Made by a program: the position numbers and the translations under genes. From Mytilus galloprovincialis (Eukaryota; Mollusca; Bivalvia; Mytilida; Mytilidae), in the NCBI RefSeq assembly GCF_965363235.1, contig NC_134843.1:92351795-92415794 (forward strand): a stretch of 64,000 bases of DNA, written 5' to 3'. Below, piece after piece: positions 3,284 through 63,794 of this stretch. The notes under the pieces were generated by a model. That model was not told the origin of the DNA. It did no database searches and was given only the letters and a program-made list of their open reading frames with translations. Position 1 is the stretch's first letter; every line of letters begins with the position of its first letter.

Positions 3284-3297
3284 AGACGGTCAATTCT

Positions 3298-12677: not shown

Positions 12678-12912
12678 GAAATCATGTGAGGGTACCCAAA
12701 TTGCACCAATTTTGACAGGTTTTCCAACTACGTTTTTTATGATCTAGACAAAAGTGTCAATTCTGTGTTTATTTTGTAGACTTATCCTTATTTACTATAT
12801 AGTTACACCAATATAATTTTGAATCCATGCTAAATCAAAGAAAATGGACTTGAACCGACCTCCAAACGATCCATGATTCTGAAATGAGAAGTACCAAAAT
12901 TACATCCCTATA

Positions 12913-13072
12913 GTAATTTTTGGGGCCCTTTATAGCTTGCTGTTCGGTGTGAGCCAAGGCTCCATGTTGAAGACCGTACCTTGACCTATAATGGTTTACT
13001 TTTACAAATTGTGACTTGAATGGAGAGATGTCTCATTGGCACTCATACCACATCCCACATCTTTTTTTATCT
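12913..13072 (+). repeat. SINE-like interspersed repeat, copy 1
   Basis: It contains the family core TTGCTGTTCGGTGTGAGCCA and ends near TCTCATTGGCACTCATACCA. Four copies in this orientation occur in the window (also 16205, 49893 and 56585). The family is spread widely, but I cannot assign a head or tRNA-derived promoter. Confidence 0.75.
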
Positions 13073-13220
13073 ATTTCCTGCTTGGTTTGTTGCTCGTGCT
13101 GTGTGGATGCAGTAGAATGTGTCCCCGTGTTTGTTATATTTTTCAATTATGGGTTGTTTGCCTTTGAGAAAGCTTTCACATGTTTATTATATCTTTGTTC
13201 TTAATTGTTAATTATATATT

Positions 13221-14820: not shown

Positions 14821-16204
14821 ATAACAGTGATTTAATAGCAGTGAGTATTGTAGAAGTGTGCCATCTGTTTTCAATTAACCTCAGTCTGGACAGGTCACAG
14901 GAAGAAGCTGCTATCTCCACAAAGATTGAGGACAGAGGCATTAGAACATATTTTTAAATACATATATCTGCAATTACTATCACTTTTATTAAACATTTCA
15001 TAATTAAACAAATTAATAATTTATTTTCCTTTTTTTTTTCAATATATCTCATATTCAAAATTAAGACATATGCAAGAAGTCATAAGAAAAACATTTTAAA
15101 CAACTCCTCAAACAACTTCATATATTGAAATGCAACACAATTTGAATTTGGAATAAACAGGAAGATGTACGTGTCTTCTTTCTTGAACAAAATGAGAATT
15201 TTACATTGGATGTAAAGCAAATGTTTGGAAGTAGTTCTTTTCACTTTAAATAGAGAAGATGGATCCTTCTGACTGGCATCAATGACTATTTAGGAAGATT
15301 GCATGTATTTTGAATTGCATATTCTGGTAAGTACAATAAATTGAATTCCACCATTTTGGTGATATTATCTGATATGCTCTGTTTGTTCAACATATTAATA
15401 AAATAATTATAGTATTATAAGTATCTTAATTTTTATTTTTGAAGAGTAAAAAGAATAAAAAACCTACAATAAATATTTATTCATGCAAACATTTTCATCT
15501 TGTCTGTTTTGTCCTGAGGTTTTGTCACAGTCACTTCCTATTTTGAATTGTTATTCCAAATACAATATTAAGGAATGGTTATTATTTTGAGTTGGTTTGA
15601 TTTTTTTTTTTTTTTTTTATTTCTACAGTGTAAGTGATTTTCCAAGCTATGACTTTATTTTATTCTTATGCTCTTTACAGTTATTTATGCTGAATACAAA
15701 ATTATAATCACACATTTTTAGGAGTAAGCATTTAGCATTTCTTGGTTTTGCCATTAAGACAGTTGAAAAAAGAAAAAGAAATAAGCAGTATATATGCATA
15801 ATGCCATCTTTTTTATTTGTAATTTCAGATTATAACAAGGGATGCATGATGCAAATTAAATCAGAAGAAATTAACCATCTGAAGAAAAGCTGAGAAGTGG
15901 TAGATCCAGATGGAGGGTTGTAGGGGTTGGAACACCCCCCTTTTTTGTGGATCATCTGTTAAAAGACAAAACGGACTTTTCCAAATCCAGCTGGATTTTT
16001 TTTTGTTAAGTCCGGTTGAACTTTATAGAGGCCATATTTTTGCCAGAAATGCCAGCTGGATTTTTTTCAGACATATTTTTATGAAAGTCCACCTGGACTT
16101 ATTGATGTTTTTCCTCATTTTTGTTGAGTCTGCGATTAACAGCAAAAGTAGGCGAGACACTGGGTTCCGTGGAACCCTTACGAATTTTTTATATAGATTA
16201 GACA

Positions 16205-16390
16205 TTTGGTTTTCCCGTTTGAATGGTTTTACACTAGTCATTTTGGGGGCCCTAGATAGCTTGCTGTTCGGTATGAGCCAAGGCTCCGTGTTGAAGACCG
16301 TACTTTGACCTATAATGGTTCACTTTTACAAATTGTGACTTGGATGGAGAGTTGTCTCATTGGCACTCATACCACATCTTCTTATATCCA
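16205..16390 (+). repeat. SINE-like interspersed repeat, copy 2
   Basis: Same family as 12913, but extending further upstream: it starts near TTGGTTTTCCCGTTTGAATG, as does the copy at 56585, which suggests that this is close to the true 5' limit. Confidence 0.75.
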
Positions 16391-16807
16391 TTAAATTCAC
16401 ATCCTCAAAAAAAAACGAATAACAAATGTTTTGTTCTATTTCTTCAAATGTTAAGAACAATTTGACATTAGTCCATGCTTAATATTCATTTTTTTAGAAA
16501 TAGATGCTTGTAACATATTTTATTTGCTCATTTTTAAAAGATGACTTTCTGTGAACGTCGCATGGCGACGTTTCCGTAAATTTTACTTTTTCAGTGAATG
16601 GTTCATCTGTTGATATATACTGTGAACGTTTTGTGTATATTTAAATATATTTACCTATGTTGGAAGATGTGTATAATGTCAAATCATAAAATTACAAAAT
16701 TGTTTAGTCTCAAAGGAAACTTGTAAGATTTCCGCAGCTATTTTTGTTGAATATGTGCAATGTGGGTACTCGGTGCAATTTGGGTACTGTGACGTTATAT
16801 ATGCATG

Positions 16808-16857
16808 TAGTCCAAACAATTATGACGTCTTGCAAGACGTCATAATTATTTGGGCTA
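16808..16857. repeat. 50-bp near-perfect palindrome
   Basis: Two 25-base arms meet without a spacer and differ at two positions. The arms match the ends of the MITE at 29743-29886 (core ATTATGACGTCTTG), so this looks like a collapsed copy holding only the termini. Confidence 0.7.
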
Positions 16858-18025
16858 ATATGCATGATGAAAAGTTAACAAAATATGGAGATGGTTTCCC
16901 TGAGGGGAATCTAAGAAAGGTATGAAAAAATGGGGCTTTGGTCTTTAGTCGGAGGGGGGTAAAATTAAAACGATTGTTTTTACTGTGGATAAAGATTTTT
17001 GTTTTTTGTATGATAAAAAACATAAGAAAAGTTTTGTTCCGGACAAAGTATTTTGTACTTTAAGACTCTAAAACCAAAACCGTGCCTTGAAAAAAAAATG
17101 CTGTTTTTACACCTTAAACATTTCCAACTGGACTGGGTTTTTTTTCTATAGAAAATGAAAGTCTTAAATTATCTATTACCTGAGTCTATAAATACTTTTT
17201 TTCCTGTATATACTTCTCATTTCAGACCAGCATTCTGCAGAGGTCCACATACACTCACTGTTCCAGCAGAGTTATTTCAAGAGAACAGACAAAGGTTGTG
17301 TGAAAGGTTAAAGGGTAAAGTTCAGAGTGGTGCCATTGTATTGTTGCAGGGTGGAGAGTCACAGACTAGATATTGTTCTGACCATGAACCTTTATTTAGA
17401 CAGGTAACAGTATACTGTAACTGAAAATCCCTGTTTACACTAGGATAGGAAGTAAACACACACATGACATACTGTACATCAAGTCATTTTTACGAAAATA
17501 AATGAATCTACAGTAATAGGAATATCATCTTAATAGCATATTCAGTTATGTGCATGAGAAAGTAAGCTTGGAATAAAAAATTCTTAATTGAAATTTGTTA
17601 CTTCATATTAATTTCAGGAGTCACATATGTATTATACTGATTACATGTTCGTATTATTTTAATTATATCTGTGAAAAAAAAAGTATTTAGAGAAATAATA
17701 GTATGTGTTATTTTCTTTAGAAATAACACTTGACATCTTCAACTGTGCCTATTGAAAATGACACACCCATTATGATTAATATTTAAGTGTTACCATGATA
17801 CATAGACTTATAGACTTATAATTTCTTAAAGCAGAAGGTGAAAAATGTCACCTTTTTTTTGTGAGTGGTACAATTATATAAATGTTATATGTTCTAGAAA
17901 TCCTATTTCCAATGGGCTTTTGGAGTGGAATAACCAGATTTTTATGGTGCCATTGAGGTAGATACAGGAAACACAATATTGTTTCCTCCCAAAGTTCCAG
18001 ATGACTATGCTGTCTGGATGGGAAA

Positions 18026-19076
18026 GTAAGATATTTACAAAAGAGAACTTATTGAATAATGTTCTTCAATGAAATGTCAATACCAACTAAGGCTTCATGA
18101 CATTACTTGTGTGTGAAAAAATAAAAAATAGGCTTCTTGTATGAACATTTAACTAAATTTAAAATAGAGCTGATGTGATGCTTAGAATATTTTCTTGCCT
18201 GGAGTAGATTAACATAAAGAAAATCTTCCATGTGAAGATCTTTTTGAACAAAGATCGTTCTATATATACAATTTCTTAGTCATTTTTGTGTCAGCCTAGA
18301 TTTTGCATTATTTCTCCATTTTGCTCAATTTATTTTAACTCTAAAATAGAACATTTAAATCTGCAAATTAGAGGCATCATGAAAAACATTTAAGTTCTTG
18401 TCCAATATAGTCCTGCTTTAGAGGATATACTTTTATAATCCAAATTAAGTCTGTTCAAAGAGTAATCTATGATGACTTTTTTATTGTCCTTTTATGATCT
18501 TTTATAATTTTCTATTTCTTGATGATGAAAAATTTAACCCTTGACCTAACTACATCCATTATCAGTTAGATTGATCAATATATTTTCAAACTTTGGTTTT
18601 ATCTGTTATCTCTTTATCATATAAATGTTTCTGCTCAAGTTTCATAACATTCGATGAAGGTATGACAAAGTTGAGAATAATCAGTAAAAAATAGAAATAA
18701 GAAAGAAAAAAATCCAAGTTTTATCAGTACAGTACGGAAATTTAAGCAAAAAAGTATTTTCAAAATATCGATTTGCACACGGTCTTTTGATTATTTAGAA
18801 ACTTTGATTTAGTTTTGTAAAATCCCATGATTGTTAGTCAAATGTTGATCACTGCTGACGACAGAATGTAGGAACATTTTGTCTGGCTTCCACAACTTTC
18901 AATGTGGGCAAGCCAGAAATCAGACTATGAAAAACATCAGCATGAATTGAAAATGATGACTAACTATTAATGATAATCAGGTTATTTTTGGATGGATGTA
19001 TATAAAAACAAATGAAACAATGTATAAATTAAAGTAGATGTTGTTTGAAGTTTTTAAAGAAAACGAAATAAGTGTA
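18026..19076 (+). other. PEPD-A intron 3, left part
   Basis: No gene. Its ends align with PEPD-B intron 3 (55216-55856), up to about 19070, where the inverted-repeat element starts. The alignment defines the host/insert border. Confidence 0.65.
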
Positions 19077-34777: not shown

Positions 34778-34832
34778 TATTGAAGACTTCAAAGAGAGAT
34801 ATGATGTAAATGAAGCCCATTGGTCATCAGAT

Positions 34833-35548
34833 GTACGTTTTTATATAATTGTATTTTATTCTGCAGCTTTTGAGAGGGAATTGTTAATTTGTGTTCTTAC
34901 AACATTGTTTTTTATATGTAGTCTTTAACCTGTACATTACATTTTAAATACCAATATATAAAAGTTACTTGCAAATCATATGACCTCATTTAAAAATGTA
35001 AACTATGAAACATTGATATTTTCTGATTCCGTATAAAGGTAGATATGGTCTTATAATGTGAGTAAAGGCCAAACATGGTGTGACGTCATTCTAACGAGTG
35101 ATATAGAATAGGAAGACATAATGAATTTTGTTTATATTCCAACATTGAAATTTAGCATTAAATATACCAAGAAAATTATGACTTTCTATTGAAATTCCAT
35201 CTCATTGGAACTAAAAAACAAAGTATTCTCTGAAAATATCTAGCATTTATATGCATGTTGAAAAATCACTGCATATGCCCTGAAATCAATGGAAAGTATT
35301 GGCAGGTAGGCAATAAATGGGCAAAATAAACATAAAAGTGATGGGTAACATTTAATTGCAGTTATATGAAAAAGACTATAAATAATCAAAACATGCATGA
35401 TCTCATTTGATACCTATGCAGTTGAAAACATTGTTGTATTATTAATCAAATTTTAAATTTGTAAAAGTGTGTGTTTTACTGTTGGTTAGAATATATTTGA
35501 ACAAATTTAACATGATATAAAATGCATAATATTTTGTATTTAGTTTTC
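34833..35548 (+). other. PEPD-A intron 4 remnant, then unidentified sequence
   Basis: The first 70-100 bp align with PEPD-B intron 4 (from 55921), although the donor reads GTACGT and not GTAAGT. After about 34900 the similarity ends. No further exon is seen. Confidence 0.55.
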
Positions 35549-37052: not shown

Positions 37053-37110
37053 TTTTGGCGACGAAAAAAAAACTGAATATTAAAATAAATGTGAATTTCT
37101 ACAAGTGACA

Positions 37111-40100
37111 ATGCCGACTTACGGGAAAGTAGACTCTTTTGATGAATCTGAAGATTGGACACAATATGTAGAACGTATGGAACATTATTTTAATGCTAAT
37201 GAGATAGACGAAGAAGACCAGAAAAGGGATATTTTCTTAAGTGTATGTGGGAAGAATACCTACAAATTAATAAGGGATTTATTAGCACCAGCCAAACCAG
37301 GAACGAAATCACTGGCCGATTTAACAAAACTAGTGAAGGACCACCGAGATCCAGTACCATCAGAAATCATTCAGAGATTTAAATTTAACAGTAGGACAAG
37401 ACACAGCGATGAGTCAGTGAGGACATTTATTGCAGCACTAAGAAGTCTGACAGAACACTGTAATTATGGTGACTCGTTAAACGCAATATTACGTGACAGG
37501 TTAGTCGTCGGGATAAAGAGTGACCGCATACAGAGGAGGCTGTTAGCAGAGCCGAATTTAACATTTGAAAAGGCATTGGAAATTGCTACCGCTATGGAGA
37601 CTGCAGAGAAGAATGCACAGGACATACAAGCGAGTGGGACAAATGGAACATTTCAGAAACAAATCAACAAAGTTTCAAAATCATATACAAGAAACAACTC
37701 TGGAAATTTGAAACAAGGAGATTGTTACCGTTGTGGAGGAAATCACTTAGCCGCTGAATGCAGGTTCAAGGATGCAAAATGCCACAGTTGTAAAAAGAAA
37801 GGACATATCGCAAAGAAATGCCGTAACAAATCTGCCAGTGGGAATCTCAGTGAAAATCACAGAGAGTTTAAATTACGTTTTAATCCACGTGCTCATTTCA
37901 GGGAGCAGGATGAAAGTAGTGAAAGTGAAAATGAAGTTTACTCAGTTTTTCATTTTGGAAATAAATCTAATGAGGCATACAAAGTGCAAATCAATGTAAA
38001 TGAATGTGAAATAGCCATGGAAATAGATACCGGAGCGTCAGTTTCTATCATGAGCGAGGATACTTACAAGGAATACAAGTCGAAATTCAGAATCGAACCG
38101 ACAAGTGCTAAACTCCGAACATACATGGGAGAGCAGATTCCTGTAATAGGACGTTCAATCGTCAATGTCAATTACAAAAAGGAACGCGCAAAATTACCAT
38201 TACTGATAGTGAAGCGTAAAGGTCCGAATTTACTTGGCCGAGACTGGTTGAACAAACTCCAACTGGATTGGAAGGATATTTTCTCCGTCGTTGGAAGTGA
38301 TAATCAATTAAGTGATTTGAATGTGATCTTGGAAGCAAATAAGGAGGTTTTCAAAGATGAACTTGGAACTGTAAAAGGCATGAAAGCCAAGATTTATGTT
38401 GATGAGAGTGCCGTACCGAAATATTTCAAGGCTCGCCCTTTGCCGTATGCGTTGATGGATAACGTGGAGATGGAACTTGAACGTCTTGAGAAGGAGGGTC
38501 AGATTCGGCAAGTGGAATTTTCCGACTGGGCCGCTCCGATAGTACCTGTAGTTAAGGAGAACGGATCTATTAGAATTTGTGTTGACTACAAGGTAACCGT
38601 TAATGCCGTTTCAAAGTTGGATAATTATCCTATTCCTAAAACAGAGGATTTATACGCAACGCTTGGAGGAGGACAAGAATATACAAAATTGGATTTAAAC
38701 CAAGCATATCAACAGATTGAACTTGATGAGGCCAGTAAGAGGTATGTGACTATAAACACGCATAAGGGTTTATTCAGATACAATAGACTTCCGTATGGTG
38801 TAGCGTCCAGCCCAGGTATTTTCCAAAGAACACTTAAAAATGTTGTTCAAGGTATAGCCAATGTTTTGGTTCGAGTAGATGATATACTGATAACGGGTAA
38901 AACAAGGGAGGAACATCTTAATACTCTTTCTGAGGTATTGTCTAGATCTAAGAGAATCGGAATTCGGTTAAAGAAACAGAAGTGTGTGTTCATGGCCGAA
39001 GAAGTTGTTTATGTGGGATTTAAAATAAACAAACACGGAATATATCCAGTGGAAAGTAAAGTTGAGGCGATCGATAAAGCACCAAGTCCGACAAACGTGA
39101 CAGAACTGAAAGCTTATCTTGGTATGCTGAACTATTACAATAGATTCTTAGCGAATTTGTCTCACTTGTTAAAGCCGCTACATGTACTTCTACAGAAAGA
39201 CATAAAATGGAGTTGGGAAAAAGAACAGGAAAAAGCGTTCATAGAGTCAAAACAGCTGTTGAAATCCGCATCAGTGCTTGTACATTTCGATCCGAAAAAG
39301 AAATTAATATTAGCATGTGATGCATCACCATATGGATTAGGCGCCGTACTTTCGCATAAAATGGACGACGGCAGCGACAAACCAATAGCTTATACATCTC
39401 GAACACTTACATCAGCAGAGAAGAATTATTCCGTTCTTGAGAAGGAGAGTCTGGCCATAATATTTGGTTCAAGAAATTTCATCAATATTTGTATGGACAC
39501 CCCGTTACAATCATAACCGATCACAAGCCGCTCATAGGTTTATTTCGAGAAGATAAACCTATACCTACAATGGCCGCATCTCAAATTCAAAAGTGGACAC
39601 GCAAGGACACAATACTGTCTATGGTGGTTAGATACATTTTGAATGGATGGCCGTCAAAATGTCCCAGTGAAGACATAAGACCGTATTATAGTAGAAAAAA
39701 TGAACAGTGTAGTCAGGACGGATGCATATTGTGGGGAGGAAGAGTAATTATACCACAACCAGGACGTGAAGCCATGTTAAATGCATTACACCAAGGACAT
39801 CCAGGGATTACTAGAATGAAAAGTCTAGCAAGAAGCTATATATGGTGGCCGGGAATGGACAATGACTTGGAATTAACTGTAGTTAATTGTTACAGTTGTC
39901 AGGAAAACCGCAAGTTACCAGCAGAAGCGCCGTTACATCCGTGGGAATATCCGAGCCATCCGTGGTCAAGAATACACATAGACTTTGCAGGACCTTTCAT
40001 GAACAAATCATTTCTAATTATGGTTGATGCGTATTCAAAATGGATAGACATACACGTCATGAATTCTACAACATCCGAAGCTACGATTGCAAAACTTCAA

Positions 40101-40884
40101 CAAACGTTTGCAACACATGGATTATGTGATCTCATTATTAGTGATAATGGAGCCGCATTTACTAGTAAGGAATTCGCCGATTATGTGAAATCAAATGGAA
40201 TTGAACATCGCACTTCCGCGCCGTGGCATCCAGCTAGTAATGGTTGTGCTGAACGAGCAGTTCAGAGTTTCAAAGAAGGTATGAAGAAAATCAAAGAAGG
40301 AACTATCCAGGAAAAGTTGAACCGTTTTCTTTTCAACTACCGTATTACGCCACAAACAACGACAGGACTAGGTACTGGCACCGTCAGAATTGCTAATGAA
40401 AAGGAAACTCAAGTCACGTCTAGATTTAGTTTTTCCAAATATCGAGAAGCGAGTTCAGGAGAGACAACAAAAACAGAAACATTATCACGATAAGAAATCT
40501 GTGAACAGACAAATTAATGTAGGACAGGGAGTATTTGCCCGAAATTTCGCAATTGGTTCAAAGATTAAATGGATTCCAGGAGAAGTTATAAAACAATCAG
40601 GACCACTTTCATTTCATATTAAATTGCAAGATGGACGTGTCATTCGTAGACATATTGACCACATCAGAGTACGAAACTTCGATTGCACAAACAACGAAAA
40701 TGAAGAAAAATGTGACAATGACAGTGATTTGTTTGAGCCAGAAATAACTATACCGATAAGTACTCCTGAGACCGAACAACCGCAAATCGAGAAACCGTCA
40801 AACATGACTGAACAAATGGAACCACGCTATCCGAAGAGAATAAGAAAAGAACCATCGCATTTAAAGGATTTTGTGTTGAAATAA
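37111..40884 (+). pseudogene. gag-pol of the Gypsy element, frameshifted and internally deleted
   Basis: The start is taken as ATG at 37111 (the open frame reaches 37105 only by a GTG). Gag is followed by two zinc knuckles (CX2CX4HX4C-type at about 37725-37765, then CX2CX4HX4C at 37780-37822). The protease has DTGAS near 38026-38040. RT runs about 38400-38950 with the catalytic motif reading RVDD (about 38872-38883), not the usual YxDD. RNase H starts at 39310. The frame shifts by one near 39475 and continues at 39489-40493, with the integrase HHCC zinc part and the D, D, E triad (in IDFAG, ISDNG and CAERAVQ). A second shift near 40385 leads to 40390-40884 with the basic C-terminal module. 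The end of RNase H and the connector are missing near 39577. This copy cannot make a complete Pol. Confidence 0.9.
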
Positions 40885-48318: not shown

Positions 48319-50869
48319 TTAAAACCTTGCCCTAGGCATTCCAAGGAAAGACAAATCTGTTACAGGAATAACATGTTCATCGCCTTGAGTAACATTACAC
48401 AGGAATTTAACATCATAAATAAAATCTCTGTGACTTTCTTTGTCTTTTAAAACATAACGATTATGATGTGGATATTTCTGATGAATTTCTCTCAAAGTTC
48501 CTGGTATAATGAGTGGTCCCTTAGCACCATAGATATCTGGGTCCTCTGGGTAAAGATCATCCCCTGAAACATAAAAATTAAACCATTAACACAGAATTAA
48601 CGTTATTTCTTTTAACAGGTTTAATTAAATGAAACAGATATTAATAATGTAATAGTCATATTTGTTCTTCATAAATTGTTTAATAAAAAAAGGTCGTTAA
48701 TTTTCTTATTTGCTTGTTTCACATTTTTCATGTTTTGGCCTTTTATCATGTTTATCATGTTTATAGCTGACTGTAATATATGAGTTTTTCTCATTCTTAA
48801 AGGCCATACAGAGACCTATAAATAAAGAATAATGGCAATCTTATTTTTGATGTTGACTTGACAACCAGGGATTTGTTTTGGACCAATTCATTGACAATAT
48901 ATGCACAATTGTTAGCAAAAAGACTTTTGTTTGATTTAGGTTAAAGAATATGCAAAATCAATGCAGTTTGTTTAGATTTATAATTTTCTATTTTTTTAAG
49001 TTCTCCCTTATCAATTTATTCAGACCACAAGCATTGACAAGACAATAAAAAAGAAAACATTTGTCATGAAAAAGACTCTTAAAGTTAAGAAGTAGGTGAA
49101 ATTATTCTAGGAATACATTGTACATCGACACATCTCCCTGTTAGGCATGTTGGATATTCGTGTCTTAAATCTTACAATTCTGAAGTGGGATTCCCCTGAA
49201 CACATCTAGTAGTTTATACTAGCTATCAACATACTGAATTATCCAATATTAGACAGAATCTTGCCTTTAACTACAAAACTTTGTTAAAGCAAAAAACTAT
49301 GTAACATTTTCCATACATGTACCTGGATATAGAATAAAGATTCCATCATCACAGACAGCAGGTACTGGAAAATTTCTCGTTACTCTCTTGTTGATTCTGG
49401 TCAGGCAAAATTCATTCAACTCCTCCATATCTTTAAAGTTCAGAAATCTACATATTTCATAAATCTGTGGTGGAGCAAGTTTAACTTTAGATTCTAAATG
49501 ACTTTTTATCAACTCATCTGGTGGAGACCACTGAAGAGAAAAAAAAAAAAGTATACGAGATTAATGACATGGTTATTGTAATACAAATGTACATGTGCAA
49601 ATGTATTTTGATTATTCTAGTAAGTATTGTGTTAAATATTCAACCAAGTCATTATCATTGATCATGGTCATATCAATGTTAATAAAATTTGTGAAATATA
49701 AATTATGTATCCATAGTTGGCTGTTATCTGCTCTTTGGTTAGGTTGTTGTCTCTTTGACACATTCCCCATTTCCATTCACAATTTTATCATAAACTGTGG
49801 TCATGGTCAAAATTTAAATAAATAAAATAAATTGCAGCATTGAAAAGAATATGACACAAATCAATGTGCAAGCTGTAGATATATATTTAGCTGTAATTTT
49901 TGGGGCCCTTTATAGCTTGCTGTTCGGTGTGAGCCAAGGCTCTGTGTTGAAGGCTGTACCTTGACCTATAATGGTTTACTTTTATAAATTATTACTTGGA
50001 TGGAGAGTTGTCTCATTGGCACTCATACTACAGCTTCCTATATCTATTTGAAATGTTACAAAACTGAAAAATAATGGTAGTTTAACATAAAAACATTAAT
50101 TCATTTGAACATAGTAGTATAAAAGAGAAGAAGCCAGAATTTTAACCTGTAAATGTACTGTTTCTTTGTCATCATGAACAGCATCTGGTATAGTATCCAA
50201 TAAACAAAGAAAGAATGCAGTATCATATCTTCTTTTGGAACCTTCATCGGTTCCAGACGATCTTCTTGCCACAGTGACAGGTGTCAACCAGTTTGACCAT
50301 TCTGTTAATGACCATATGTCAGGAACCATATTAAATTTTTGACACATTTTGATGAATTGTGTTGCATCTTTATCTACCTTCTCCCTCCATGTCTCAAAAT
50401 CAGAAATACCAATATTACCAATTTTTCCGTAGTCCTTTGATACATTTGAATCCTCTGTTAGGAGGTTAATTTTATTGTCATTGGAAGATCTGGTAAGTAA
50501 TATTCCACATTCTTCGAATGTCTCTCTTATAGCACAGATTCTAAAGGCAACTTCACTTGGGATTTTCGAAAAATGTTCATCCCTTTGTCTGCTAAACATT
50601 GGAGGACCTTGTCCCACCTTTGAAAAATGAGCAAATGTTTTGGCCCATATATCATTGTCAAGAGAGGAAAAAACATCCATCCATTCTGGGGAAAAGTCAG
50701 CTTCTTCTGCCACGCCCCCTGGAAACACATTCAAGCTTGGCATAAATGTGCTTTTACCACTTCTTTTCAACATTAAAATTTCATAAGAGTATCTGTTTGC
50801 AATGTTCTTCGATTTGGCAGCAATAATCAGAGTAGCTGCCTCCCTCCAATGTTTTAAAATAGTAGCCAT
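48319..50869 (-). CDS. NUDT19: NUDT19-like Nudix hydrolase, copy B, complete
   Basis: Three exons: 50147-50869, 49323-49530 and 48319-48563, giving 391 codons plus TAA, close to human NUDT19 in length. All borders are GT/AG with matching phase (0, then 1). Predicted to hydrolyse CoA and CoA esters in peroxisomes. FPGG with GG at 51-52 and RETFEE at 115-120 form the split Nudix box. The protein ends in ARF, at best a weak variant of a C-terminal peroxisomal signal, so peroxisome targeting is not shown by the sequence. It is oriented head-to-head with PEPD-B. Its introns are shorter than those of copy A. Intron 1 carries a SINE-like insertion (49893-50047) that copy A lacks. Confidence 0.92.
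49893..50047 (+). repeat. SINE-like interspersed repeat, copy 3
   Basis: Same family as 12913; lies in intron 1 of NUDT19-B on the opposite strand to the gene and is absent from the equivalent intron of copy A. A 29525-type tail fragment lies just upstream (49713-49797). Confidence 0.75.
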
Positions 50870-51409
50870 GTTATAAAGAATATTTGTTTAATCAAGTTGA
50901 CAATCATTCCATGGGGCAGCCATTTTTAAATTTATGGGTTTAGCTATGTTCATGAAATTATTTTAGTGTGTCAATCTTCATAAATTCCTAAATTCTATTT
51001 CAAAAACAAGATTTCAATTTTTTTTTATGTTAAAAAGTAAAAACAAATACAAAATTTTATTTTTATATACACTATTATTGGAAAAAGGTATCGATAATTT
51101 TCACAATCAGAAAAGATAATTTATCTTTTAGACAAATCCGTAGGAAGGTTTGTAATAATACCGAAGAGTAGATAGATGCAATAAACATTGTATACACAAA
51201 TAAATATGTTCCGCCATTGCATTCCTTATTTTTAGAACAACGATTATTAAATTAGTGTGTCTAAAATGTTATAGGTTCATCTTAAACAAATCATATGTCA
51301 AATAAAATTTTGTGACAAGGAAATTGGTTTGAGTGAAATTTTTTGTTGGTTTTCAGATGCTTTTGAAGTTGTCTTGTGATCATCTTTGATATCAAGCAAG
51401 AAGAGTGAA
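50870..51409. promoter_or_regulatory. Divergent promoter region, copy B
   Basis: 540 bp separate the NUDT19-B and PEPD-B start codons. The stretch next to the PEPD start is conserved with copy A (about 51325-51409 against 11885-11958) and contains a short upstream reading frame in both. Bidirectional promoter function is inferred. Confidence 0.55.
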
Positions 51410-54400
51410 ATGGCAGCTTCTAGGGCTCAGTAAGAAATGATTTTACTTAATTGATAATCATTTCCTGAATGAATTCCTTAGGAAAAATAATATACTTTCT
51501 AATTCTGAAAATAATTGTGTTATAAAAACATTTTTTTAGGCTGATATGTCATGATATGGTATCACAAAACACAATTGTTCAAATCAATAAATTATCAAAA
51601 GAAATTCTAAAAATGTGATTGCATAAAACTATTAATGCATAAAGATGCATGTTCAAAAATTTAAAAAATTTAAATATTGAAGAAGGCTTTCCTAAGGGGA
51701 ATCTTTAAACATGTTAAAGGGAAGGTATCAAAAAAGGGGCCTTGCATGTAAGGAGGGTGGTAGAATTGAAAAGATAAGTTAATTAGATTTTTAATTCAAA
51801 CATGTTTATAAATGGAAATACCGTAACGTTTCCGATTTTGGTTCTGTTGTTAGGGATTTAGTTATGACGTTATTTAAGTTATGACGTCAAATTCATTGTA
51901 AACAAAGAAACGCTGTCATCAGGTAATGTTTTTTTTCATATAAAACAATAATTAAAAATGAATTGGTATTGAGTTCCAATCCTATATTTTACTAGACTGA
52001 TAAATATATATTTTATTCAAAGTCTCATGCAAACAAGACCCGAAAGGGAAGTAGATTTCTGCACAAATGCGGGCATTTAAAAAAAGTCTGAAAAAAAAGT
52101 TAACTATTTTGAGTTCATTAGTTTATTGAAAAATTCGGGAAAATTTTCCTGATTTTTTTTTTTTTTTTTTATTGATTTTTCTACCGTAAAAGGGGACTTC
52201 GTCCCCATATAAACCATAACCATGATAACTGTGTCTTGCATGCATTCTATCTGTTTATAAAGCTTTAAAATATCTGAGAGTAAATGTTAACAGTGTTATT
52301 CTTCATCCACTATGTTGCTAATAGTATATGTGTACTTTTCATTTCAGACCAGCATTTTGTAGAGGTCCACATACACTCACTGTTCCAGCAGAATTATTTC
52401 AGGAAAACAGACAAAGGTTATGTGAAAGGTTAAAGGGTAAAGTTCCAACTGGTGCCATTGTATTGTTGCAGGGTGGAGAGTCTCAGACTAGATATTGTTC
52501 TGACCATGAACCTATATTTAGACAGGTAATATTATACTGTAACTCAATTTCCAGGAAAATAAAAGAATCTGCAGTATTAGGAATATCATCTTAATTGCAT
52601 ACATATCAGTGGCGGATCCAGAGGGGGGGGCGTAGAGGGCGTACGCCCCCCCTTTGCTTGGACTTTTTTTTTTTAAATTTGTAAAAATGATTAATCAGAC
52701 TAAGACTTCGTGAAATTTGCCATTTCCCGTGTATTTTGTTTTTATGCGACAATTCTTAACTTATAACGATATTTTTCGCTCGTAGCTACTGTAATATACT
52801 ATTGGTTATGTCAAAGTCATGTGATTCAAAACGGCGGATTTAACCAGTGCGTCGAAAAAAACGTCATTCAGTCATTTTGAAATTCAGATTACAGTAACAC
52901 TTGCTTATGCTGAGGGTGACAAGTATGACACCTTCAAAGCGACAAAGGATTGAGCAAGAACGTACTGACTTCTATTTCATAATTCCACCATACAGAAAGT
53001 AATATTCTATTACACTCTTGTGAAAGTTCCACAGCAATATTATTTATCTACGAAAACATATTTAAGCCCAAACGCCCAGCCTATTGATAACATAGCTGAA
53101 TAATGATCCCCAGTCAGTAAGCTCTAGATATATTTAAAGTCTAAGGTACGGACTATTTGATTTGAGCAGGGAGTCTGAGAAGTTTGAGAGGAAAAAATCT
53201 TACCCAGATTTTTGTCTTAATAAAAAATTCTGGTCGTATATATCTGGATTGTAAACAATAAGTTTGTCCACTCATTTGCTATTAGAAACAAAAATTTCAA
53301 ACATAATTATTTAGGGTAAAATGAACATGATGAATAATAAACGGGTGTTATTTTTTGGTGCCGGGGTTTGCATGTAAATCCCATATCTGACCGGAACATT
53401 TGTTTCGCCGAACTGATGTATTGAATACTTTTTCAAGGCCCGGCTGCAACCTGCCTGCTGGGTGTGACCATTATGTCTCCATTTGTCGACCGTCATTCAT
53501 AAATTCGTAGACTTTGGTTAATTTGGAACCCTAACTTCCCTTGTTGGCTGAAACATTTCACCAAACATTTGGACAACAATGGTTTGTTTGTTTTTAACTC
53601 GTGTTTGTCGTATTGTAAATTTCATCGATAGCCCGGCGTATATCTTGTTTACAACAAAAAAAAAAATTTGAGGTTATACAAATTAAACAAACGAGAATTG
53701 TCCATGTCCATTTTTTACTGACAACTCCCACATCAAATATATTAGTACATAGCTTTCAATCTATCCAATTATTTTATGATAGACATTTAATGGGGAGAAT
53801 ACGGCATCAAAAATGTCCGACCCTTACACTTTACAGCAACTATGAAATATACATGCCCAACTTTAGGAACCGTGTGAAAAGTTTGATTGTACACTTATTT
53901 TATGTTTTTATGCCCCACCTACGATAGTAGAAGGGCATTATGTTTTCTGATCTGTGGCTCAGTTCGTCTGTGCGTCCGTCCATTCAGGTTAAAGTTTTTG
54001 GTCAAGGTAGTTTTTGATGAAGCTGAAGTCCAATCAACTTGAAACTTAGTAGACTTGTTGCTTATGATATGATCTTTCTAATTTTAAAGTCAAATTAGAC
54101 TTTTGACCCCAATTTCAGGGTCCACTAAACATAGAAAATGAAAGTGGGAGTTTCAGGTTAAAGTTTTTGGTCAAGGTAGTTTTTGGTGAAGCTGAAGTCC
54201 AATCAACTTGAAACTTAGTAAACTTGTTGCTTATGATATAATCTTTTTAATTTTGAAGTCAAATTAGACTTTTGACCCCAATTTCACGGTCCACTAAACA
54301 TAGAAAATGAAAGTGGGAGTTTCAGGTTAAAGTTTTTGGTCAAGGTAGTTTTTGATAAAATTGAAGTCCAATCAACTTGAAACTTAGTACATATGTTCCC

Positions 54401-57400
54401 TATAGTATAATCTTTCTAATTTTCATACCAAATTAGATTATTACCCAATTTCACGGTCCATGGAACATGGAAAAGGATAGTGCGAGTGGGGCATCCGTGT
54501 ACTTTGGACACATTCTTGTTTAGCCTAAAAAAGGTCCCAAAAATTTTACGTCTCGCTCCGCTCGTCGAATTTATAATTTACTTCGCCCCCCCCCTTTCCA
54601 AAATCCTAGATCCGCCCTTGCATATGCAGTGGTATACAGGAGAAATTAAGCTGGGAATAAAATTTCTTCACTTGAAATTGTAACTTCATATTACCATGAT
54701 TTCAAATGTATTAATTTCAGGCCTGGAGTCACATATGTATTATACTGATTGCATGAAGTGCCGAATGATTTTAACGATTTCTGTGAAATAAGTACTTAGA
54801 GAAATAACATGAATAATAGAATATGTTATTCATTTTAGAAATATAGCATAATTAAAGCATGATATGTAAAACTGTGCTTTTGTTTGACCTATTGTTATTG
54901 CAATATACAGTTATTCTTCAACAATGCAATCAATTTAAATAAAATAACAAACCCATTGATGCCATTAGGGTTAATATTTAAAGTGTTACCATGATACATG
55001 TATAGACTTATAATTTTCATAACACCAAGTGTGAAAAAAATGTCACTTTCTTTTTTTTGAGTGGTACAATTATGTTCTATTTTCCAGGAATCCTACTTCC
55101 AATGGGCTTTTGGAGTAGAAGAACCTGATTTTTATGGTGCCATTGAGGTAGATTCAGGAAATGCAATATTGTTTCCTCCCAAACTTCCAGATGCTTATGC
55201 TGTCTGGATGGGAAAGTAAGATATTTGCAAAAGAGAACATAGTGTATATTGCTCTTCAGTGAAATGTTAATACCAATTTTAAAAGGCTTGATGACATCAC
55301 TTGTGTGTGACATCAATTAGATTGTAAAATAACAGATGTTTTTCAAATAGAATTTGAAAAAACATCTTGTAGGAAAAAATACTTGAATTTAAAATACTTA
55401 TGTGTTACTTAGAATATTTTCTTGTTGGAGTAGATAAACATCTGTACAGTACAGTGCAGTACCAAAATTTACAGTACTAAAATTACAGTGTAAGAAAAAT
55501 ATGATTTTCAAATATTGAATGTCACGCCATCTTTTCAATTATTTAGAAACTTTGCTTTAATTTTGTAAAATTCAAAGATGGTCAAACTCACTGAACCTCA
55601 AAGTTGAATACACTTAAGCCTTAAAATTGCTGATTGCAGAATGTAGGAATAGTTTTTTTTTCTGGCTTTCACAACCTTCAATGCAGGCATGTCAGAAATC
55701 AAACAAGGAAAAACATGATCATGAATTGATAATGATGACATACTGTTAAAAATCATCTTTTTTTTTATGGATGTATCAAAAAACAACGAAACAATATATT
55801 TTATTAATGTAGATGTTGTTTGAAGTTTTTAAGGAATAAAATAACTATATTTTCAGGTTACTTTCATGTGATGACTTTAAAGAGAGATATGGTGTAAATG
55901 AAGCCCATTGGTCATCAGATGTAAGTTAATATACAATTGTATTTTATTCTGCAACTTATGAGAGGAAATTGTTAATTTGGGCTCTGAAAACATTCAATAG
56001 GGAAGAATAGACTTTTCATGAAATTATGAAATTAATTTAATAAGGAAAAAGTAAACAACAGATAAATTTGAAAGAATATAAATTATTTTCTTAGGATAAA
56101 AAAATCATATAACCATTTTCTTATGAAAATAAAGATTTATTTTTTTTTAACCAAGACCCAAATGTCTGGGTCAATATTTGGCATAACCACAATCATGCAT
56201 CCACCAAAAATACATTTTCCCCTAAATCTACAAAAAATGATACCCACAAAAATAAGTGAATCTACATTATACTGAAATTTTGTCCCTTTGTATCTTCTTT
56301 CCAATAAATTCTTTTTAATAAATTGTTTATTGCTGTTTTATTTCAGATCCCTTCAGTATTGAAAGGAAGAAACCCAGCAGTCCTGTTAACATTGGTAAGT
56401 TAGTGTATAATTTTAACGTTCACTGTTTGATTTTACTCTTTATTGAAAAATCTTATCAAATTGAAAAGTTTAAATCTGGTTAAAACATATAGCTGAATAC
56501 ATTTGAGCTGTGTCAGATAGGAATGAACCTTGTCCAAGTGCAGGATACATGTACATGTACATGTAAATGTAAAAGGCTTAGACTGTTGGTTTTCCCGTTT
56601 GAATGGTTTTACACTAGTAATTTTGGGGCCCTTTATAGGTTGTTGTTCGGTGTGAGCCAAGGCTCCGTGTTGAAGGCTGTACATTGACCTATAAATTATG
56701 GTTCACTTTTTTAAAATTGTTATTTGGATGGAGAGTTGTCTCATTGGCACTCACACTACATCTTCCTATATCTATTTGGTGAATTTTGGAACATTCACAT
56801 ATAAAATAAAAGAGGCATTTTGGTCTGTTTTGTAGGGTTTTTATAACAATTCATTTTCAAACAGTTACAGACTTTTCATAGTGATTTTTATAATATAAAG
56901 TTAACAGATGTATTGATATCCATTTGATAGTGATTTTTATAATATAAAGTTAACAGATGTATTGATATCCATTTGATAGTGATTTTTATAATATAAAGTT
57001 AACAGATGTATTGATATCCATTTGATAGTGATTTTTATAATATAAAGTTAACAGATGTATTGATATCCATTTGATAGTGATTTTTATTATATAAAGTTAA
57101 CAGATGTATTGATATCCATTTGATAGTGATTTTTATAATATAAAGTTAACAGATGTATTGATATTCATTTCATAGTGATTTTTATAATATAAAGTTAACA
57201 GATGTATTGATATCCATTTGATAGTGATTTTTATAATATAAAGTTAACAGATGTATTGATATCCATTTGATAGTGATTTTTATAATATAAAGTTAACAGA
57301 TGTATTGATATCCATTTGATAGTGATTTTTATAATATAAAGTTAACAGATGTATTGATATTCATTTGATAGTGATTTTTATAATATAAAGTTAACAGATG

Positions 57401-60400
57401 TATTGATATTCATTTGATAGTGATTTTTATAATATAAAGTTAACAGATATATTGATATTCATTTCATAGTGATTTTTATAATATGATAGTGATTTTTATA
57501 ATATAAAGTTAACAGATGTATTGATATTCATTTGATAGTGATTTTTATAATATAAAGTTAACAGATGTATTGATATCCATTTCATAGTGATTTTTATAAT
57601 ATAAAGTTAACAGATGTATTGATATCCATTTGATAGTGATTTTTATAATATAAAGTTAACAGATGTATTGATATCCATTTCATAGTGATTTTTATAATAT
57701 AAAGTTAACAGATGTATTGATATTCATTTGATAGTGATTTTTATAATATAAAGTGAACAGATGTATTGATATTCATTTTATAATATAAAGTTAACAGATG
57801 TATTGATATCCATTTCATAGTGATTTTTATAATATAAAGTTAACAGATGTATTGATATCCATTTGATAGTGATTTTTATAATATAAAGTTAACAGATGTA
57901 TTGATATCCATTTCATAGTGATTTTTATAATATAAAGTTAACAGATGTATTGATATTCATTTGATAGTGATTTTTATAATATAAAGTGAACAGATGTATT
58001 GATATTCATTTTATAATATAAAGTTAACAGATGTATTGATATCCATTTGATAGTGATTTTTATAATATAAAGTTAACAGATGTATTGATATCCATTTGCA
58101 TTACGGTTGATTTCTATCTGACCCAGCTTATTTATTTTTTGATGATAAAATAAAAATGATATCTGCATATGATCATGATGATACACTTTACTTAAATGGA
58201 AGCTAAATGTAAAATATTATTTTCCAGAAAGGACTGAACACAGACAGTGGTAACTATAGCAGAGAAGCAGCATTTGATGGAATCAGTCAGTAAGTATAGT
58301 TCAGATTGTTTTGATATACCATTAAAGTCATGATATCTAAATTACAGTTTCTTTTCTTTATTTTCTGTGAAATATTGAAATGTAATTTCAGTAATATTCA
58401 CCTTTGGTTTTGGAAGTTAAAGTTTACTCTTTTATTTCTAAAAGGAAATTAATTTGATTTGAAAGGTTATTTTTAAGCAATCTTTGGAAGTAATACTTAT
58501 TGGAGAAGAAAAAAAACCTTATTAATTTTTTTATGGCAACTTGGTCAAAAGCCAAGGTTACAATATTAGTTACAGCTGATTGCATGGAGTGTGTAGGTAA
58601 AGGTAATATATTTGGTTATCTTGCTTGCTAGCTGAACCATGAAGTCATTATTAGGTTAAGAGTAGACTAATCTATCTGTCTGTAGGATAAGGCTACCACT
58701 AAAGGAGGGTAGTATACCTTACCTACTAATGACTTCACGGTTCAGCTAGCAAGCATGCTAACCAAAGATATTACCTTTACCTACACACTCAATGCAATCT
58801 GCTGTAATACCGTAGGAACTCAAATATAAGTCTGAAGTTTGGGAGTAAAATGACTGACTTAAACACAATTCCAATCACATGACATTAGTTTTCAGCATAC
58901 TATACACAAATCCTTATCAAAACTGCAATGACTCATTTCTTGTCTTCAAATTTTGATAGATTGCAACTTGACATTGTTATTTTGTATTTTTAATGGAAAT
59001 TTTCAAAAGAACATTTTTAATGTTTCAGATTTAAAGTAGATAATACAATTCTTCATCCACAGATCAGCGAATGGTGAGTATATGAAAAAAGATTTTAAAA
59101 CTTGACCTGAACACAAGTTTTTAGAACAGGTTTTTTAGCTATTTATATGAACTTTTACAATATAATATATTCCAGATTCTTAAGTCTTAATTTTTCTTCA
59201 GGTTTTACCTACATTGATCTTTGATGGATAACAGTCTCATTTCAATTCAATTCACATTGTAATCAACATTAATATTGTTATTTTATATTTATCTTTTCAT
59301 TAAAACATTTGAAAAAAACATAAACATTAACTTTTGGCTTATCTAGGTACAAACATTGAAGCCTGATGTCCTTTTAAAGCAAGGGAAGTAAATATGTAGT
59401 TGCTAAATGTATTTGAATTCCATTTTTCAGTAGAGTTTTCAAGTCAGACAAAGAATTAGATGCTTTGAGATATTCCAATAAGATTAGCAGTGATGCTCAT
59501 AAAGAGGTATGCGAATATATACTATTAGATCTGTCAGATTAGCAAAATTCTGGAGCACTTGAGTTCACTCTTTGTTTTTGAGATGAGTTCATATTGTGTC
59601 CTGACTATTGTGTGTGTTTTTTTTGTCATTTTCTTTTGTCCATGCTGTTTTCTGATTTCTTTGACATCTCTCCATCTAATTATTTCTTAGAAGAATCAGT
59701 AGACAAGAAGATTTCCTTCAGTGTCACTAGCTTGTCAACACAATGACACATAAGGTTGTGAGTTTTGAGTACAACAATTTTTAGTAAATTTTTGTAATCT
59801 TTTACAAAAATCTTCCCCTCTGAAACTACTGAGACATAATTTGAATAAACTAGGCCACACACATCATCAGGGTATCTACTATACAAAAATGTGTCAGATG
59901 CCCACCAACATGCTGGACATGGCTAAATAAGAAACATAGAGAGGTAAAATACAGTATTTGGCTAAAAAATCTCTAAAATTAAAGCGAAAGTATAATCGTT
60001 GCATCATTTCATACGTAAATTGTAAACAAAAATATCAGGTGAGCGACACAGGCTCCTTGGCCCTTATTTCAATTTTCATGGCTGTTCCTAAGGAATCATT
60101 TGATGACAATTTTACTTGATTGCTACAATATAACTGTTCTGATGTTTGTAATTCAGAGTTTTATATTAACAGAGTGGCCCATTAACAAAAATGATTGTAA
60201 GATCTCTTGAATAAAAAACATACTCCTTTATACTGTATTTCATTAAACCTGGAAATAAAAACATACTCCTTTATACTGTATTTCATTAAACCTCGAAATA
60301 AAAACATACTCCTTTATACTGTATTTCATTAAACCTTGAAATAAAAACATGTTTGCTGCCTCCTTGATGTCTAACAAATAATATGTTTATAAATTAATGG

Positions 60401-63400
60401 TCTTTTTCTTTATGTTTTCTTACAGATAATGAAATCAATCCGACCAGGAGTGTACGAATACCAGATGGAAAGGTAGGCATAATTATTAAAAATATTAAAT
60501 GATAAAAGTAAGCCTATTGTCTAATACTTGATCTTATATAACTGATGCTTTTTCCTAAAAAAAAATTGACGTCACAAAGCAAATATCTTCACATCACAAT
60601 GTCCCATGGCGTCTTTCCTCGAATGACCTTAAGTCAACTGGGATAGTTCATTCATTGAATCGAAATTGAAAACTTGTCTATTCTGGTATTCTACTAAAAA
60701 AATTGTTCTGAAGAATACTTGTTTGGTTATTGAGCAGCAATCTAAAATGAAATAACATACAATATGCATATAATTTGTATATGTGTCATGTTTTAAAAGG
60801 TAACTCTTTTTAATAAAGGAAAATTAAAATATGCAAAGCAAATTAACTGTTAATGTTGCGGGAATTGTTTTTTAACTTACCTCAACTCAAATTAAGGTTA
60901 AGAATCTGAGCATACCTAGCTGTAGTTGTAGAATCAGAAAAGAGGATATATTTTCTCTATATTTACTGTCATAGAGAAATTCTATCCTTGTTAATGGTAT
61001 TTGAAATTATAACAGATTTTCCAAATGAAAATTATTAAACCAAAATACCTATCATACAAATTTATTTTCTAAGTTGACAGAATGCACTATGTAAAGTTAA
61101 GGGGTTAACTATCTTTATATAAGTGTAGCCTTTCAGTACATGAAAATGTCTTGTCAAACTATGTTGTAAATGCGATATTGAGCGTTTTCAATCCACCTGA
61201 CATTTTTAGTACACAAATAATAGTAGTGAGGTTTGAGTTTTTTTTTGGTCATATCCATGTGATGTCACATGTGAATGTTTGCAAATGTGTGAATTACAAT
61301 TCTTGTCAAGAAATTGTTTACATTACACAAGTTGCAAAAAGTAGTGTGAAGTGTATGAATTGAATGTATACCTAATCCCAAATTATTCACAAGCACTTTG
61401 ATTTTAATTGTCCTTTGTCTTTTATTTTTTTGACTTCTGATTTCAGTTTATTCAAGCATTACTGTTATTTTACGGGTGGAATGAGAGGTGAAGCTTACAC
61501 TTGTATTTGTGGAACGTAAGTATTCATTGTTCACTGTTTTTATTTCAGTCTGTTTAAACATTATTGTTATTTCACTGGTGGAACAAGAAATGGGGCATAT
61601 GCTTGTGTTTGTGGATCGTAAGTACTATACACAATTACATATGCATGAAGATTAAGTTTTCATTTAGAATACATACATACCCAGTAATGATATTATTAGA
61701 GAACTGTGGATTCTTTAATATTCATTTGATACCAACGCTCATGGATTTCATGTGTAAAGGTTAATCACAAAAAAATTCAGCGACATACACATTTTCTATT
61801 GTTACTTATGCATATATATACTTTGGCAAAACCATAAAATATTTTTACGAAAATTGGTATCAACAAAAATAAAAGAATCTACAGTACTTCTTTTGAGTTT
61901 ATATATATTGCCATCTTACAATCTAATCTCTTCCAAAAATAATACTTAATTTTATAGTAATTGGCATTAGACTATAATGTGATTGATCGGGTCTCCTCTA
62001 TACAAAAAGGTAAGTTAATTGGAAAAAATAGAATAATTGCCATCTTCTCAATAAGAGTCCATAGTTGTTAAACATTTTCCCATTAGAAAAAGAATAGTTA
62101 TTTTATCTTGGCCATAAAACCACTCGAATGAAAATGTCATTGGGACACTCAATTGAACAGTCAGAAAGATGCATTTTCCTGTCAACTATAGAAGACTTGA
62201 GAAAAAGTATGAGGCAAGTGTTTCTCTAACAGGCGTCGATAATTGTTCAAGGAACCTTTCTACTATTCTTTCAGTATAATTCTCCTCAGAGAAATAACTG
62301 CATGGTTAGATCATAATGGTATATTTTCATTCTTGTATAATATTTAGTAGTAATTTTTAAGAGGCAACTACTGTACATCTGTGGAAAACCAATAGGCAGT
62401 GTGTCCATTTTAAGTGTATATTTTCAGTGGAGACAATGGTTCTGTACTACATTATGGCCATGCAGGTGCCCCAAACAGTAAACTGGTGCAAGATGGTGAT
62501 ATGTGGTAAGTTGGTAATTAGACACAATTATATCTTGTTGCTACATAGGATTCTTCTAGCACTTAAACCAAAAAAATATGAAGTCATTCTTTTCTGTCAG
62601 TAATTTTTTATGCAAGTGTGATGAAAACTTTTGTCAGAATAATAAATGGACCAATGGCTATACAGACAACATAATTGCAGTATTAACTTTATTAATTGGA
62701 GGCAGCATTCATGAAAATACCTTCTTTCTAATTAATTTTATGAATTAACGTAATTATTTTTATTTCAGTTTATTTGATATGGGCTGTGAGTATTATTGCT
62801 ACACATCAGATATCACATGTTCCTTCCCAGCCAATGGAAAGTTTACAGAGAGACAAAAAGGAATATATGAAGCTGTATATAAATCTAGTAGGGCAGTAAT
62901 GGCAGCTGTTAAACCAGGTACAGTTCTCATCAAGTCCCCAAAGTAACATGGAAAAACATTTCTTCATTATCATTTCTTTTCCTTAAGATAATGAATACTT
63001 GAATTAAGTTTTAAATTTTTATGGCTTGGTGTTAATTAGATTTTATTATTTAAATTTGTTAAAGACTTTTCACTTTTGCAATGTGTCATAAAGATATTAG
63101 AATTAGGTTGCAGCTGGTTTTGATAATGATTTTTTCCCCCTTGTGATTACTTAAGGATTTCTCATGTTTTTAGAATTTGATAGTTGATTAGACATTCAAA
63201 AAATTCAAGAATTGATGTATTGTACAACAATGTGATGCTCTTCCCATTTATTTCATCATTCAAGTTCTTGGATGAGTTATTCCTTTTATTACATTGCCTT
63301 TTAATGCCAATAGGTAAAAAAACAAATAGAAGCACTTACATATTTTTCAACACATTTTTACTTTGTGTAGATGCAACTTCATTGTCAACAACTATTGTTT

Positions 63401-63794
63401 TGTATGACGTCACAGATGTGAAATTACAGAATTTATTTCACATGCAGAATATCAGTTCATTTGACTGGAAAATCACAATCTTTCAATGGAACCAATGTAC
63501 TGTCCTATAACAATGTTATTTGTTTAAAGAGTAAAATAGAGTTCAGACGTATTTATACGTCTTCTTCTGAGACCAATACAGATATCTATAAATTTGCTAT
63601 TGTTTTTAGGTGTTTGTTGGGTTGACATGCACTTGCTGGCAGACAGAACACACCTAGAGGAATTGAAGAGACTTTGTCTGGTTACAGGAGATGTTGATGA
63701 GATGATGAAAGTCAGACTTGGGGCAGTGTTCATGCCACATGGTCTGGGTCATTTTATGGGACTAGATACACATGATGTGGGAGGATACCCAGAG
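51410..63794 (+). CDS. PEPD: PEPD, Xaa-Pro dipeptidase (prolidase), copy B; 3' exons outside window
   Basis: Exons: 51410-51429, 52348-52525, 55088-55215, 55857-55920, 56347-56394, 58228-58289, 59029-59073, 59431-59506, 60426-60472, 61447-61515 or 61549-61617, 62428-62505, 62769-62917, 63610-63794. All have GT/AG borders and consistent phase, giving about 383 of an expected 490 codons with no stop. Prolidase (M24B, Mn-dependent, cytosolic) splits Xaa-Pro dipeptides, for instance from collagen breakdown. The N-terminal domain is followed by the pita-bread fold. Metal ligands are visible as D275 (LFDMG), D286 (TSDIT) and H369 (GLGHF); H254, H365 and H376 also align with human active-site histidines. 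The remaining ligands lie beyond the window. Exon 1 codes for only MAASRA plus two bases. Introns hold several insertions. Confidence 0.93.
52607..54620. mobile_element. CAGTGGCGGATCC-ended element in PEPD-B intron 2, CATAT target duplication
   Basis: The ends CAGTGGCGGATCCAG and CTAGATCCGCCCTTG are inverted and run into C/G homopolymers. The direct repeat CATAT flanks it (52602-52606 and 54621-54625). PEPD-A intron 2 has a single CATAT at the matching spot (near 17539), which confirms an insertion after the duplication. The 2014 bp contain no recognisable transposase, and the pearl-like tandem block at 53920. Confidence 0.85.
53920..54525 (+). mobile_element. Pearl/Helitron-like element with 169-bp tandem core
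   Basis: The head ATGCCCCACCTACGATAGTA is followed by GTCTGTGCGTCCGTCC, then three units starting at 53983, 54152 and 54321 (period 169), then the tail GGGGCATCCGTGTACTTTGG. Nested inside the element at 52607. Confidence 0.7.
56585..56776 (+). repeat. SINE-like interspersed repeat, copy 4
   Basis: Full-length copy of the family at 12913 and 16205, in PEPD-B intron 5; preceded by an (ACATGT) microsatellite at 56547-56570. Confidence 0.75.
56879..58098. repeat. 49-bp minisatellite in PEPD-B intron 5, about 25 units
   Basis: The unit starts TAGTGATTTTTATAATATAA and continues through AGTTAACAGATGTATTGATA. Units are nearly identical and differ mainly at two sites (TCC/TTC and TTTGA/TTTCA). Three units have internal deletions (near 57480, 57770 and 58010). 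The last two deletions sit in the same variant context, which suggests a larger block was copied. Confidence 0.95.
58570..58807. repeat. Long hairpin element in PEPD-B intron 6
   Basis: Arms of about 85 bp (58570-58656 and 58717-58807) are inverted at roughly 90% identity around a spacer of about 60 bases. The core is GCTTGCTAGCTGAACC. Probably a MITE. Confidence 0.75.
60218..60350. repeat. 43-bp tandem repeat, three units, PEPD-B intron 8
   Basis: Units start at 60218, 60261 and 60304 with ACATACTCCTTTATACTGTA, and are almost identical. Confidence 0.9.
61447..61515 (+). CDS. PEPD: PEPD-B alternative exon 10a
   Basis: 69 nt between TTTCAG and GTAAGT, entering after two bases of a serine codon and leaving two bases of a threonine codon. 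It encodes [12 protein letters not shown], then [11 protein letters not shown](T). The tyrosine in EAYTC aligns with human Tyr241 near the active site (numbering from memory). It shares 12 of 12 first residues and 18 of 24 overall with exon 10b. Confidence 0.88.
61549..61617 (+). CDS. PEPD: PEPD-B alternative exon 10b
   Basis: 69 nt between TTTCAG and GTAAGT, same phase as 10a. It encodes [12 protein letters not shown], then [11 protein letters not shown](S). The 33-nt spacer from 10a (61516-61548) has both a donor and an acceptor. Read through unspliced, it gives a stop at once (ACG TAA). Differences in the first half are all silent; amino-acid changes cluster around the conserved tyrosine. 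Confidence 0.88.

Follow-up and report, generated by a model that had tools for sequence, protein, structure and literature searches.

In the window (the whole 64-kb stretch of DNA that was analysed), a Mytilus galloprovincialis prolidase gene, here called PEPD gene B, carries two side-by-side versions of exon 10, 10a and 10b. The pair is confirmed as real, as first noted. We consider it probable that 10a and 10b are mutually exclusive exons held apart by steric clash, that they stem from an old tandem exon duplication and specify two prolidases differing at six residues, and that 10b was lost in a second copy of the gene (gene A) while gene B kept both exons. The coordinates are given in Table 1.

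Table 1. Prolidase exons and associated features (positions of the window unless a contig is named)
Feature	Location	Strand	Remarks
PEPD gene A	C6:92315148-92328559		
PEPD gene B, part in the window	52348..63794	+	exons 2 to 13; M24 and AMP_N Pfam domains
Exon 9, gene B	60426..60472	+	common upstream exon; phase 2 end (..GAA AG)
Exon 10a, gene B	61447..61515	+	69 nt; encodes 24-letter peptide
Spacer between 10a and 10b	61516..61548	+	33 nt; donor GTAAGT, acceptor TTTCAG
Exon 10b, gene B	61549..61617	+	69 nt; encodes 24-letter peptide; intact
TGCATG, candidate RBFOX site	61642..61647	+	25 nt after exon 10b; motif match
Exon 11, gene B	62428..62505	+	common downstream exon; carries the His aligned with human His255
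Exons 14-16, gene B	+64407 to +65527	+	beyond the window; stop at +65527

The gene had been named prolidase in the original prediction, and the gene B protein matches human prolidase chains in the PDB (5m4j and others) with E ~1e-212. Two Pfam domains were detected, Peptidase_M24 (PF00557, E 6.7e-53) and AMP_N (PF05195, E 3.7e-27). The alignment to 5m4j extends over 471 residues and spans His255, Asp276, Asp287, His370, His377, Arg398, Glu412, and Glu452, the metal and substrate sites named for human prolidase (PMC8438212); it has no gap at these positions. All 15 modelled introns of gene B have GT and AG ends, with the 33-nt spacer counted as one intron. In a scan of bacterial and archaeal genomes one locus was detected, a bacterial M24 protein that is 28% alike and in which the Tyr and a VLHY-like motif align. 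A scan of viral contigs for relatives found none.

Exons 10a and 10b of gene B are adjacent homologous exons of equal length and phase, as mutually exclusive duplicated exons are, each with its own canonical acceptor and donor. They are alike at 51 of 69 bases and differ at 18. Each links exon 9 to exon 11 in frame: with 10a or with 10b, gene B is open over 488 residues from exon 2 to the stop codon, with no internal stops. If the spacer were kept in the gene B message, the frame would read ACG TAA, an immediate stop. On the exon lengths and phase, the splice sites, the in-frame joining and the stop in the retained spacer, the original prediction was accurate. Of the two exons, 10a is closer to human prolidase at M, T, and I.

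The prediction also described the pair as an old duplication under coding selection, and the divergence of the exons agrees with this. Between 10a and 10b of gene B, dS is 2.03 and dN is 0.145, and from these values coding selection looks to have kept both exons for a long time. Codons 1-12 differ by seven synonymous and no non-synonymous changes, the silent-only pattern noticed earlier; the probability that seven of seven changes are silent without selection is 3.5e-6 to 7.1e-5 for a transition bias of 1 to 4. In codons 13-24, ∼3.5 silent and ∼7.5 amino-acid changes were counted (dN 0.336, dS 0.616), indicating weak constraint in the second half of the exon, much less than in codons 1-12. We also simulated neutral drift, letting 10b drift freely (5000 runs per setting) and scoring the runs that remained this similar and without a stop. 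At 0.2 substitutions per site 9-14% of the runs did so, falling to 0.1-0.5% at 0.35 and to none of 5000 at either 0.5 or 1.0. Both copies thus appear to be kept by selection in gene B; in gene A, 10b is broken.

The amino-acid differences between 10a and 10b lie at exon codons 13, 15, 16, 19, 21, and 24 and cluster, as had been claimed, around the active-site tyrosine at codon 18. In human numbering, taken from the alignment to a human prolidase chain, exon 10 corresponds to residues 224-247 and the six differences to 236, 238, 239, 242, 244, and 247, around Tyr241; 10a agrees with human at 236, 242, and 244, and 10b at 247. Eight residues past exon 10 is His255, which binds the proline carboxylate of the substrate (PMC8438212). 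In OPAA, a related enzyme from bacteria, the small pocket is lined by Tyr212, which also bonds two of the Asp residues that bind metal (PMC7916636). Because the distance from Tyr212 to His226 in OPAA is 14 residues, equal to that from Tyr241 to His255, Tyr241 is taken as the equivalent of OPAA Tyr212, a match made by spacing rather than by structural alignment. No mention of Tyr241 by name was found in the open-licence literature. It is possible that the isoforms differ in substrate or metal handling; as the Tyr, both cysteines and the preceding GG are unchanged between 10a and 10b of gene B, a catalytic change is only a conjecture.

We searched the host genome (1.38 Gb, 331 contigs) for further copies. 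One further match to the exon pair was found, with 92% identity over 171 bases, at C6:92321750-92321920. It belongs to gene A, a complete second PEPD gene 91.5 kb upstream of gene B; gene A sits on the contig of gene B, within a collinear block to which the neighbor of gene B belongs as well. The possibility that A and B are alleles or an assembly duplicate was ruled out by this distance on one contig, by the divergence between them (dS 0.22) and by their own flanks and intron lengths. Over the coding sequence, A and B differ with dS 0.218 and dN 0.034 (dN/dS ∼0.16), and gene A with its own 10a is open over 488 codons; with these values and no stop in either gene when 10a is used, both genes look functional. 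The same figures leave gene A as a plain pseudogene unsupported. Outside exon 10, residues that B shares with human have been lost from gene A, for example by a Pro to Ser change before HGLGHF and an Ala to Glu change in HAGAPN, and given such losses it may be diverging in function. A protein search with exon 10 at E up to 1 gave eight matches. Six of them fall on exons 10a, 10b, and 11 of the two genes (E <=3.1e-5) and one on exon 9 of A (E 0.49); the last, at C6:31630523 (E 0.32), is weak and looks unrelated. Among the best candidates scored in this genome search, neither a third copy of exon 10 nor a processed copy recording a spliced mRNA was seen.

Gene A carries the same exon pair, with a 33-nt spacer of which 27 bases are identical to those of B; that no indel separates the two spacers is weak evidence, the stretch being so short. 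Exon 9 shows no difference in 48 nt, and 10a differs at two of 69 bases, one of which changes an amino acid. Since dS is ∼2.0 between 10a and 10b and 0.22 between A and B, the exon pair predates the gene duplication and by this measure is much older, ∼9-fold on the dS scale, on which a value near 2 is saturated. Exon 10b differs at five of 69 bases between the genes. In gene A its codon 4 is a stop, Cys is replaced by Trp at codon 7 and by Tyr at codon 22, codon 12 has a silent change, and codon 17 encodes Ser where B has Ala. With this stop, 10b does not give an open protein in gene A, and the pair is not preserved wherever it is present. Stops in one exon had been named beforehand as a sign against the prediction. 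That sign is present in the paralog, with the stop and both cysteine replacements, and absent from gene B, in which 10b is intact. The loss of 10b from gene A means that not every copy of the gene has to supply the 10b isoform, and this counts against our main reading.

We infer the splicing pattern, the steric block and the RBFOX control from the sequence. The spacer is 33 nt in both genes, and the other 14 introns range from 255 to 1855 nt in A and from 263 to 2562 nt in B. A donor-to-branch-point distance of ∼50 nt has been given as the limit for splicing (PMC7969005), and any branch point inside the spacer falls below it, which upholds the earlier claim that the spacer is too short to be spliced. 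Branch-point-like motifs (yUnAy), which are motif matches only, have their A at positions +11, +18, and +27 relative to the 10a donor in gene B and at +11 and +18 in gene A. Because 10a and 10b are both multiples of three in length, loss of frame cannot enforce exclusion, and a steric block would have to. In the mechanism that we propose, an old tandem exon duplication made 10a and 10b in PEPD. Any branch site for 10b would lie inside 10a or at most 33 nt past its donor, too near for U1 and U2 snRNPs, so that 10a could not be joined to 10b, and retention of the spacer would bring in the stop. Each gene B mRNA would then take one of the two exons, giving two prolidases six residues apart around Tyr241. 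After the gene duplication, copy A would have lost a working 10b and make the 10a enzyme only, while B kept both. Of 629 human clusters, 57 have been classed as steric (PMC5740500).

Two 69-nt exons included together would preserve the frame and add 23 residues to the protein, but this would require splicing of a 33-nt intron where the next shortest in either gene is 255 nt. Such double inclusion is very improbable, and so is an origin of the pair as an assembly error or an unmerged allele: the exons differ at 18 of 69 bases, and genes A and B, at their distance and divergence and with their own flanks, are neither alleles nor an assembly duplicate.

Gene B 10b agrees with 10a at codons 4, 7, 12, 17, and 22 (in the amino acid, or in the base for codon 12), and because of this agreement the simplest history puts each of the five A/B differences in 10b on the branch of gene A, a placing that depends on 10a as the outgroup at sites that are saturated. 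It is firm for the stop and the two cysteines and less so for codons 12 and 17, the latter because human has Ser there, like gene A 10b. Under neutrality, the synonymous rate would lead one to expect 7.5 changes in gene B 10b since the A/B split, and the intron rate (13% intron divergence) 4.5. The probability of no change on the B branch is then 0.0005 at the synonymous rate and 0.011 at the intron rate; if up to two of the five changes are allowed on B, it is 0.02 and 0.18, respectively. Constraint on gene B 10b has probably continued since the split.

Another explanation holds that 10b is dying in both genes, having once been used and being unused now, broken in A and unbroken in B by luck. 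Gene A 10b with its stop and its C>W, C>Y, and A>S replacements would fit this, and with an A/B split of only dS 0.22 an unused 69-nt exon could survive in B; for at most one non-synonymous change in an unused gene B 10b, the synonymous rate gives a probability of 0.02 and the intron rate one of 0.13. We nevertheless judge this explanation to be decidedly unlikely, because no change has necessarily occurred on the branch of gene B 10b itself, its splice sites are canonical, and the long-term constraint on 10b before the gene duplication is strong.

The choice between 10a and 10b would probably be set in trans, and the best candidate site for this is the UGCAUG after 10b. RBFOX proteins bind UGCAUG, and the motif is enriched 10-80 nt downstream of exons that are included (PMC5840707). 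In genes A and B alike, TGCATG occurs at +25 after 10b, and in each gene 10b is the only one of 15 exons with the motif within 100 nt downstream; with 25 plus-strand occurrences in the 64 kb of the window, the chance is ∼4% per exon. In C. elegans unc-32, the UGCAUG in intron 7b favors exon 7a (PMC3585155), and the 10b site could therefore act in either direction. Downstream of 10b, genes A and B share 47 of the first 50 intron bases, the joint highest value among 15 introns; the long introns were aligned end to end with many gaps, so that low values are partly effects of the alignment. Exceptional conservation of this intron was rejected, as the intron of exon 11 also matches at 47 of 50.

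The same surroundings bear on gene A, in which the stop-bearing 10b could act as a poison exon: mRNA containing it would be degraded, gene A would be off where 10b is chosen, and B alone would make the 10b enzyme. Gene A 10b retains the AG acceptor, the GTAAGT donor, the 33-nt spacer and the TGCATG at +25, and the high match in the following intron would also fit. Recent loss without any new function gives the same pattern in gene A, however, and we think a poison exon unlikely there; it is no rival to our reading of gene B itself, namely mutually exclusive use of 10a and 10b.

The surroundings of gene B contain further repeated pieces. Prolidase and its upstream neighbor form three tandem units, that of gene A upstream of the window, a truncated one within it and that of gene B (regions 9401-19061 and 34781-34906 of the window and C6:92301795-92330000). 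In the truncated unit, exon 2 and an exon 3 with a stop lie at 17227-18026, and a stretch at 34781-34906 resembles the exon 4 region of B. Two duplicated ORFs lie at 10655-11464 (-) and 50096-50887 (-) of the window; the first matches NUDIX (E 3.3e-5) and the second has no match at E 0.001. We take both to be NUDT19-like by their look. Retrotransposon-like ORFs were found at 37084-40884 (+), the first of them with matches to reverse transcriptase, RNase H, and aspartyl protease, and the order of the pieces suggests that it lies inside the surroundings of the truncated prolidase unit. Overlapping long ORFs at 2453-4711 (+) carry a zinc-knuckle-like motif and by eye resemble a gag-like element.

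Duplicated exons that are used one at a time are already known as a kind. Steric exclusion by a branch point too close to the upstream donor, as proposed here for 10a and 10b, operates in the mutually exclusive exons of alpha-tropomyosin. Vertebrate OGDH exons 4a/4b resemble 10a/10b in being an old tandem duplication in a metabolic enzyme with a short intervening intron, and their exclusion comes from branch points that lie too close to the upstream donor, as we read it for prolidase; the OGDH intron measures 118-131 nt in birds and mammals, and its branch points have been mapped at 25-41 nt (PMC7969005), whereas the prolidase spacer is 33 nt with motif matches only. Exons 6a/6e of coq-2, present in nematodes, annelids, and molluscs, are likewise an equal-length pair in a metabolic enzyme, used one at a time and changing residues near the substrate site (PMC7434440). 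They differ from the prolidase pair, which is known from sequence, in that removing an exon was shown to change the product, in their length of 134 nt and in belonging to another enzyme. The unc-32 exons 7a/7b share with 10a/10b a UGCAUG in the intron after the second exon; RBFOX binding has been shown in unc-32, where it favors 7a (PMC3585155), in contrast to the motif match in prolidase.

Within the prolidase family itself, human PEPD has alternative transcripts of the central coding region, but its variants 2 and 3 omit in-frame exons and, unlike for gene B, no duplicated pair is mentioned in the available part of the source (PMC8438212). A study of pig PEPD, in the part available, concerns alternative first exons and not swapped exons (PMC8901773). 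No report of mutually exclusive exons in prolidase/PEPD, or of prolidase alternative splicing in bivalves, was found in the open-licence literature. Where PEPD stands beside "mutually exclusive exon" in the accessible parts of papers, it is, in reference lists, presumably the abbreviation of a pain disorder, and elsewhere the context is an expression change without a splicing change or alternative first exons. With no report found, the prolidase case is apparently new, and its least usual feature is that one of the two tandem genes has lost 10b.

Prolidase carries out the last step of collagen and proline recycling. A wider reading is that one gene makes two prolidases by an active-site exon swap, the two differing in substrate range, metal use or regulation much as in the coq-2 switch, and that gene A 10b has been turned into a stop-bearing off-switch, so that the choice of 10a or 10b in a tissue would also set which gene copy is expressed; we offer this as a speculation and think it unlikely. 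If both isoforms are made, they would constitute a natural pair of metalloenzyme active-site variants at positions chosen by selection. Genes A and B may serve as a natural experiment on the fate of an exon pair after gene duplication, in which one copy lost an exon and the other kept both.
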